A DNA stretch of 64,000 bases from Actinocatenispora thailandica. GTDB lineage: Bacteria; Actinomycetota; Actinomycetes; Mycobacteriales; Micromonosporaceae. Within the stretch, counting starts at the first letter, position 1; every line of letters begins with the position of its first letter. Below the pieces are notes generated by a model that did not search any database, was not told the DNA's origin, and saw only the letters and a list, made by a program, of their open reading frames with translations. A program made the position numbers and the translations under genes. Shown here one piece after another: positions 23,174 to 24,092 of this stretch. The stretch lies in the NCBI RefSeq assembly GCF_016865425.1, contig NZ_AP023355.1, forward strand, positions 6,136,198 through 6,200,197, written 5' to 3'.

Positions 23174-23959
23174 TCAGGACTGGACCTGGCAGAAGCTGCC
23201 GTAGTCGTCCGGGGTGTAGTAGTACTCGCCGCCGGAGCCGCTGATCAGCCGCCGGTCACCGGCGGTGGAGTCGCCGGGCGTGGGCACCACGTACAGGTGG
23301 TAGTAGTCGGCCGACTCGACGGGCAGCACACCCTCGCGGTTCTGGTACACGGTGCCGTCCTGCTCGTACGGGAACGGGCCGCCGGCCTCGACCAGGTCGA
23401 TGGTGTCCGGCACCTGCGACGGCAGGTCGGTGCACGCCGGTACGCCGCCACCGCCGCCGCCGTTCGCGTCGGTGATCTCGCAGAACGAGGCGTAGTGGTC
23501 GCCGGTGTAGTAGTAGTGCGCCGGGTCGGTCAGCGGCGACCCGCCGGTGACGATCCGCCGGGTGCCGCGGTTCGACGAGCCGGGCGTGATGACGGTGTAC
23601 TCGTGGTAGTAGCCGGACGACTCGGCGGGCAGGATGCCCTCCCGGTTGTCGAACACCACCCCGTCGTTGTCCGGGTACGGGAACGGTCCGCCCGAGTGGA
23701 TCAGGTCGACCGTGTCGGTGGCCTGGGTGGGCAGGCCGCTCAGCGAGCAGTCGGAGATGTCGGCCGGCGCGACGACGGAGGCCGCCGCGACGTGGCTGGT
23801 GGGCGCGGACCTCGGCGCGGAGCTGGTCGGCGCGGAGCTGACTGGTACCGGGCCGGCCGGTTGGGCCTGCGCGACCCCGGTACCGAGGGCGAAGACCCCG
23901 GCGAGCCCGGCGACGGTGGTCACCAGCGCTCGGCGGAGTGTCAGGGCATGTAGTTTCAT
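23174..23959 (-). CDS. secreted tandem guanyl-specific ribonuclease (RNase Sa-like), second copy catalytically degenerate
   Basis: 261 residues with an N-terminal signal peptide (RRALVTTVAGLAGVFALGTG, cleavage near AQA). Two RNase Sa-like domains follow a Ser/Ala/Pro linker. Domain 1 (about 68-165) keeps all catalytic residues by RNase Sa numbering: Glu54 in YYHEYTVITPG, Arg65 and Arg69 in RGTRRIVTG, His85 in TGDHYASF. Domain 2 (about 172-261) is plainly homologous (DTIDLVEAGGPFPYEQDG, YQNREGVLP) but has Leu for Glu54, Ala for Arg65 and Asp for His85, so it should be inactive. A Gly6 linker joins them. The enzyme should cut single-stranded RNA after G outside the cell. No barstar-like inhibitor gene was found nearby. 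Confidence 0.9.
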   Translation of the reverse strand: MKLHALTLRRALVTTVAGLAGVFALGTGVAQAQPAGPVPVSSAPTSSAPRSAPTSHVAAASVVAPADISDCSLSGLPTQATDTVDLIHSGGPFPYPDNDGVVFDNREGILPAESSGYYHEYTVITPGSSNRGTRRIVTGGSPLTDPAHYYYTGDHYASFCEITDANGGGGGGVPACTDLPSQVPDTIDLVEAGGPFPYEQDGTVYQNREGVLPVESADYYHLYVVPTPGDSTAGDRRLISGSGGEYYYTPDDYGSFCQVQS

Positions 23960-24092
23960 GTCCGGATAGTACGAATAAATCGGTTAACAGCGCATCCCCG
24001 GGCCGCGAAACTTCTCGCCCCGTCCGATCGGCGCCGATCGATCCTCCGCCGCCCGGCCGAACGGGCCGGTCCGGCCGACGAGCGGTCCGGGC

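Follow-up and report, generated by a model that had tools for sequence, protein, structure and literature searches.

A two-domain RNase Sa-type protein of Actinocatenispora thailandica and the conserved, apparently inactive second domain shared by secreted nucleases

The two-domain gene and its protein

The window analyzed here, a stretch of 64,000 nucleotides of DNA from Actinocatenispora thailandica, contains a gene for a secreted protein with two domains of the RNase Sa type (Table 1). The whole 261-aa protein scores 138 bits against the PF00545 profile (cut-off 24), and in a genome-wide scan each domain exceeded the cut-off separately, domain 1 with 88.1 bits and domain 2 with 53.7 bits. 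Each domain has PDB matches to RNase Sa, Sa2, and Sa3, and the two are 53% identical to each other over 87 columns. A first-pass annotation had described two RNase Sa-like domains in one secreted protein, and the single frame with two PF00545 stretches behind a signal-peptide-like start bears out that description.

Table 1. Features of the two-domain gene, in window positions
Feature	Position	Strand	Basis
Entire gene, encoding a 261-aa secreted protein with two RNase Sa-type domains	23174..23959	-	ORF translation, PF00545 profile
Signal-peptide-like N-terminus, aa 1-34, ...GVAQA/QPA	23858..23959	-	By eye from translation
Domain 1, RNase Sa type, all catalytic residues present	23468..23755	-	
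Gly-rich linker ANGGGGGGVPA	23435..23467	-	Alignment; low model confidence
Domain 2, putatively disarmed Leu54 RNase Sa-fold module	23177..23434	-	
Glu120 = RNase Sa Glu54, domain 1	23600..23602	-	Alignment to RNase Sa
Arg131 = RNase Sa Arg65, domain 1	23567..23569	-	Alignment to RNase Sa
Arg135 = RNase Sa Arg69, domain 1	23555..23557	-	Alignment to RNase Sa
His155 = RNase Sa His85, domain 1	23495..23497	-	Alignment to RNase Sa
Asn207-Arg208-Glu209 = N39-R40-E41, kept, domain 2	23333..23341	-	52/52 Leu54 domains
Leu222 at Glu54 position, domain 2	23294..23296	-	Leu in 52/52 such domains, 0/165 singles
Asp252 at His85 position, domain 2	23204..23206	-	Alignment to RNase Sa

Aligned to RNase Sa (PDB 1ynv), domain 1 has E54, R65, R69, and H85, and domain 2 has L54, A65, R69, and D85 at the same places. 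The alignment confirms the four residues previously assigned to domain 1; for domain 2 the four letters had been read correctly, but the description of these positions as degenerate does not hold for Arg69, which is kept. With a profile score over the cut-off and the full Glu54/Arg65/Arg69/His85 set, domain 1 is, as judged from its sequence, an RNase of the guanyl-specific family. Domain 2 has the PF00545 profile and the RNase Sa fold but lacks the catalytic Glu and His. We take Glu54 of RNase Sa to be the general base and N39-R40-E41 to be the guanine loop. Passages of one published study describe H85 and Y86 of RNase Sa as contacting the nucleotide and the histidine as acting in catalysis (PMC2716378). 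The structure matches also include PDB 1rnb, a complex of barnase with d(GpC), so the RNase Sa/barnase fold is able to hold a G-containing DNA dinucleotide. Modeled alone from a 17-row alignment, domain 2 takes the complete RNase Sa fold; the model of the tandem protein has a pTM of 0.55, with pLDDT below 50 at model residues 103-106, in the linker.

The closest named records are from A. comari (84% identity in the best segment) and A. rupis (77%). In the window, in A. comari, and in the congeneric genome G005 the gene has a transporter gene on either side (by eye of MFS and DHA2 type), and among the neighbors tested only an aminotransferase gene (HisC by eye) lies within the fetched flanks in A. 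rupis. About 20 bases just before the ATG (TTATTCGTAC.ATCCGGAC; 23957-23980 in the window, and loci L034, L035, and L115) are near-identical in the four Actinocatenispora, and are perhaps the promoter of a nearly leaderless transcript; the upstream DNA of A. rupis is otherwise different. One Actinocatenispora genome, G004, has a single-domain RNase Sa (L012, G004:C33:55467-55736) beside its tandem gene, with a complete active site, no cysteine in the domain, and a lipoprotein-like signal (by eye).

Distribution of the two-domain form

PF00545 was found in 63/354 genomes of the window's family, and among the matches listed in that survey the two-domain form occurred in G000 (the window's genome), G003, G004, and G005 alone, all of the window's genus. 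A class-wide sample had PF00545 in 81/394 genomes, with two domains in one frame only in G000 and G379. In family f15, to which G379 belongs, a profile of the second domain reached 100 bits or more in at least 56/346 genomes (43 of genus g76, seven of g67, and six of g122), a hand count of genomes with such a row; the next row had 96 bits. This count, like that of the phylum sample below, is a lower bound, as at most 17-18 first-look candidates were scored per genome. Position 54 was read in 46 tandem and six fused domains, and the remaining f15 rows were assigned by score.

Counting identical cores once, 46 distinct tandem proteins were collected: four from Actinocatenispora, six from g122, and 36 others. 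Amycolatopsis anabasis, by its record a member of the Pseudonocardiaceae, groups with g76 rows in both trees described below. Two-domain homologues are thus numerous but confined to a few genera, and the earlier view that members of the family are single-domain proteins is overturned by the 46 found in genomes.

In a phylum sample, a wider second-domain profile matched in at least 16/296 genomes, with position 54 read at the 15 loci located; one of these is G000's own, and the remaining 14 all have Glu54. A tblastn search of plasmids with the window's domain 2 returned 15 records, the best at 54% identity, and the same search with an Endonuclease_1-type second domain returned zero. Enterobacterial plasmids, among them NZ_AP019818.1, NZ_AP014939.1, and NZ_AP028311.1, carry a stretch about 46% identical to the window's domain 2, where an incomplete gene table lists no gene. 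Titles and abstract beginnings of open-license literature, taken as the best rows of larger lists with subscription papers mostly outside, contained nothing on tandem or inactive RNase Sa domains and nothing on Endonuclease I fused to an RNase Sa domain.

Residue pattern of the second domain

The first domains of the tandem proteins have a complete E54/R65/R69/H85 set in 46/46 cases. Their second domains have Y37, N39, R40, E41, L54, and R69 in 46/46 each, and Y86 in 45/46. The earlier reading that catalytic residues are lost in domain 2 therefore extends to the whole collection: beside the constant Leu54, Arg65 is lost in 42/46 (the four that keep it are all from g122) and His85 in 31/46, with 15 keeping it. 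The His85 place holds R, H, D, or N in tandem second domains and Y, H, or L in the Endonuclease_1 fusions treated below. Two loops have been lost from the second domains in g76 and g67.

Single-domain relatives differ at two positions, with the proviso that they were the best matches of searches and not a random sample. Leu54 occurs in 52/52 second or fused domains versus 0/165 single-domain relatives, and Tyr37 in 52/52 versus 6/165; Glu54 and His85 are each found in 164/165 of the single-domain proteins, with L226 the exception for Glu54. Arg40 is present in 52/52 second domains and 120/165 single-domain relatives, and also in 46/46 first domains. Eleven tandem ORFs were found before any genome search with a second-domain profile (six of them fetched by PF00545 for their first domain), and the pattern is present in 11/11. 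On these residues, domain 2 is predicted to have lost the cleavage chemistry selectively while retaining the base-recognition side, and the existence of a conserved, inactive RNase Sa-type module as such is very probable.

Two other arrangements were noted among the relatives. L226:1349-1783 (G939) encodes a degenerate RNase Sa-like protein that stands alone, in which Arg replaces Glu54 and Ala replaces His85; it has no NRE loop and differs from the Leu54 module. Kutzneria viridogrisea (L064:4284-5775) has two separate single-domain RNase Sa genes head to tail, both with Glu54, the second with NVE in place of NRE in the guanine loop.

The Leu54 domain on Endonuclease_1

At six loci of genus g67 (L205-L208, L227, and L228) the Leu54 domain lies C-terminal to a secreted Endonuclease_1. 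Two of the six fusions were scanned with PF04231 and scored 144.9 and 142.5 bits, and the nuclease part of the other four is 83-96% identical. L54, N39-R40-E41, R69, and Y86 are present in 6/6 of these fused domains, and a hydrophobic stretch of 15 residues lies ahead of the first domain in 52/52 tandem and Endonuclease_1-fused proteins. The fusions are limited to this one genus. As with an accessory module, the Leu54 domain is reused on different catalytic domains, namely RNase Sa of two lineages and Endonuclease_1, and its presence on the latter is the strongest argument against confining its role to the RNase of domain 1.

Descent and selection

Trees were built on 82 columns in all, without columns 37, 38, 40, 54, 65, and 85. 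The first had 78 rows after single-domain rows shorter than 70 aa and near-duplicates were dropped; the second had 79, after nine rows that were odd or on long branches were removed and ten were added. All second domains, including the Endonuclease_1-fused ones, form one clade, with support of 97/84 in the first tree and 100/98 in the second, where the bootstrap had not settled. The first domains fall in two places, those of Actinocatenispora among single-domain proteins of the Gordonia, Williamsia, Mycobacteriaceae, and Kribbella type and the others with single-domain proteins of the Pseudonocardiaceae type. The window's domain 2 is 68-69% identical to two g122 second domains versus 53% to its own domain 1.

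These sequence comparisons favor one origin of all second domains, followed by spread, over local duplication or convergence, and both the tree and the identities disfavor a local duplication of domain 1 in Actinocatenispora. Common descent is favored rather than established: the AU test does not reject such a duplication (p 0.131, with a log-likelihood 28.6 lower), a Cys...FC pattern is common to the Actinocatenispora domain 2 and its own domain 1, and some single-domain proteins are 58-65% identical to the window's domain 2.

Pairwise dN/dS was calculated by the Nei-Gojobori method with our own script. Mean values for domains 1 and 2 were 0.23 and 0.39 in the four Actinocatenispora, 0.26 and 0.19 in eight g76 proteins, and 0.28 and 0.35 in six g122 proteins, so that the value for domain 2 is the higher in two of three genera. 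By these ratios, domain 2 is maintained under purifying selection. A recent, functionless duplicate in decay would suit the lost catalytic residues and the higher Actinocatenispora value for domain 2, but it is hardly tenable given this selection, the presence of the domain in the four listed genomes of the window's genus and in three f15 genera, and the recurrence of Leu54 as the replacement in all domains read.

Barstar genes

A barstar profile built from nine seeds finds no barstar inside the window, as previously reported; the genome's one barstar match, at C1:7304894, lies outside it. That barstar is directly downstream of a barnase-like stretch without its N-terminal part (L116:3831-5290; G000:C1:7303830-7305289), which overlaps a transposase-like frame (IS110-like by eye), and the locus looks like a disrupted barnase-barstar pair. 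No barstar was found in G003, G004, or G005, three of the four Actinocatenispora genomes.

Within 1 kb of tandem genes the same profile found a barstar in 0/45, versus 55/161 for single-domain genes. These counts omit loci with less than 1000 nt on a side (1/46 tandem and 5/171 others), and the remaining 166 others include five Endonuclease_1 fusions, leaving the 161 single-domain genes. No tandem gene thus has the adjacent barstar gene of a barnase-barstar pair. Among single-domain genes the frequency varies widely by group: 20/21 in Gordoniaceae, Nocardiaceae, Mycobacteriaceae, and Tsukamurellaceae (including L036-L046), 11/23 in family f33, 2/21 in f15, 2/36 in Streptomycetaceae, and 0/6 in Kribbella. 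In two f15 genomes the barstar adjoins a separate RNase whose frame is shorter: in G379 the barstar at C3:293038 and the RNase at C3:293388 (169 aa frame), and in G434 the barstar at C21:243471 and the RNase at C21:243139 (221 aa frame). Many single-domain relatives have neither a barstar nor a second domain. The first-pass annotation had held self-protection to be unexplained for want of a barstar gene, a weak point when 106/161 single-domain genes are likewise without one (34/36 in Streptomycetaceae and 12/23 in f33).

A possible role for the second domain and its alternatives

Domain 2 is read here as a module by which secreted nucleases bind nucleic acid, one that recognizes guanine but does not cleave, with a probability of roughly 0.48; binding is inferred from the residues kept. 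On this account a secreted guanyl-specific RNase, domain 1, is joined via a flexible Gly linker to a permanently disarmed domain of the same fold, which would bind the guanines of single-stranded RNA (or DNA) and leave the strand uncut. Domain 2 would hold extracellular nucleic acid beside the catalytic domain and thereby raise processivity or the concentration of substrate nearby. Export of the enzyme, not a barstar, would protect the producing cell. RNA binding was one of three roles suggested at first for domain 2, and it is the one that the residue pattern supports.

A further proposal, offered tentatively, concerns how the module came to be where it is. The Leu54 domain could be a mobile, guanine-reading, nucleic-acid-binding module with a single origin in a secreted ribonuclease, probably of the Amycolatopsis family, whose general base became Leu. 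It would then have been attached to the RNase Sa of two lineages and to Endonuclease I.

Several observations temper the guanine-binding reading. It is held with more caution because Arg40 is equally strict in first domains and because some single-domain proteins come near the window's domain 2 in identity. The contrast in Arg40 between second domains and single-domain relatives may be a lineage effect only, R40 being equally constant in the 46 first domains, and the conserved residues may have been retained for the fold and not for guanine. Also counting against it are the loss of the nucleotide-contacting H85 in 31/46 second domains and the persistence of R65 in 4/46.

An unlikely but live rival is that domain 2 acts in cis as an inhibitor or folding partner, packing on domain 1, silencing it until export, and replacing barstar. 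The absence of barstar from the neighborhood of all 45 tandem genes, set against 55/161 single-domain genes, fits this rival better than it fits guanine binding. In addition, three of the four Actinocatenispora genomes are without barstar while single-domain proteins in the group of their domain 1 have a neighboring barstar in 20/21 cases; loss of barstar and gain of domain 2 may coincide in one lineage, and for this reason the rival is kept alive. However, the Kribbella relatives of that same domain 1 (0/6) do without both a neighboring barstar and a second domain, and only 2/21 f15 single-domain genes have a barstar, so its absence from tandem genes there is little contrast. Domain 2 also has the RNase fold and not the barstar fold, and a kept guanine loop would not be required for inhibition. 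The original form of the idea, in which domain 2 occupies the active domain until secretion, survives as a rival but leaves the copy fused to Endonuclease_1 unexplained.

Just as unlikely is a structural, stability, or attachment module for a target other than nucleic acid, such as the cell wall, a partner protein, or a dimer. Like the guanine loop, Leu54 and Tyr37 never vary (52/52), which would indicate new selection at the old active site, and the loss of two loops in the g76 and g67 second domains is in keeping with it. Such a module would nonetheless have no special reason for strict N39-R40-E41, R69, and Y86, nor would it account for the nuclease partner in each of the 52 proteins read.

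That domain 2 is a decoy, capturing the barstar-like inhibitors of competitors and thereby keeping domain 1 active, is improbable. R40, E41, and R69 are kept, and presumably correspond to the barstar contacts R59, E60, and R87 of barnase; R65 and H85, which we take to be the equivalents of the barstar contacts R83 and H102, are lost in most second domains, in the proportions given above, and this weakens the earlier suggestion that domain 2 blocks an inhibitor. Nor is Endonuclease_1 known to be targeted by barstar. Residual activity, or an enzyme that employs other catalytic residues, is very improbable: Arg69 is always kept and His85 is found in 15 tandem second domains, but with Leu at the Glu54 place in 52/52 and a variable His85 place there is no constant acid-base residue at either position.

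Comparison with known systems

Barnase and RNase Sa serve as textbook examples of single-domain enzymes. The solved structures listed for RNase Sa, Sa2, and Sa3 (PF00545) each consist of one domain, about 96-99 residues long; with domain 1 they share the fold, the guanine loop, and the catalytic tetrad, and with domain 2 the fold and the guanine loop. The tandem protein differs from them by an extra Leu54 domain after a Gly linker, one without general base or acid. Barnase-barstar pairs are described, in passages of one paper, as simple toxin-immunity gene pairs (PMC3482391). Their nuclease is homologous to the tandem proteins, whose genes differ in having no barstar within 1 kb. The Endonuclease_1 (PF04231) proteins of g67 resemble the tandem RNases in carrying the disarmed Leu54 module, but their catalytic domain is unrelated.

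Carbohydrate-binding modules on secreted glycoside hydrolases are non-catalytic, grip the substrate, and are attached by a flexible linker. Domain 2 would be like them in its proposed role only: it is derived from the enzyme family of its own partner, and what it binds would be guanine within nucleic acid. Because it recurs in related bacteria, at times on a quite different nuclease, the Leu54 domain probably serves as a handle that can be reused to grab nucleic acids. If so, it would supply a guanine-binding protein module ready for use, show by a natural experiment which residues of the fold serve binding and which serve cutting, and offer a model for how soil bacteria capture extracellular nucleic acid. 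It would then stand as the nuclease counterpart of the carbohydrate-binding modules, made from a killed copy of an enzyme.
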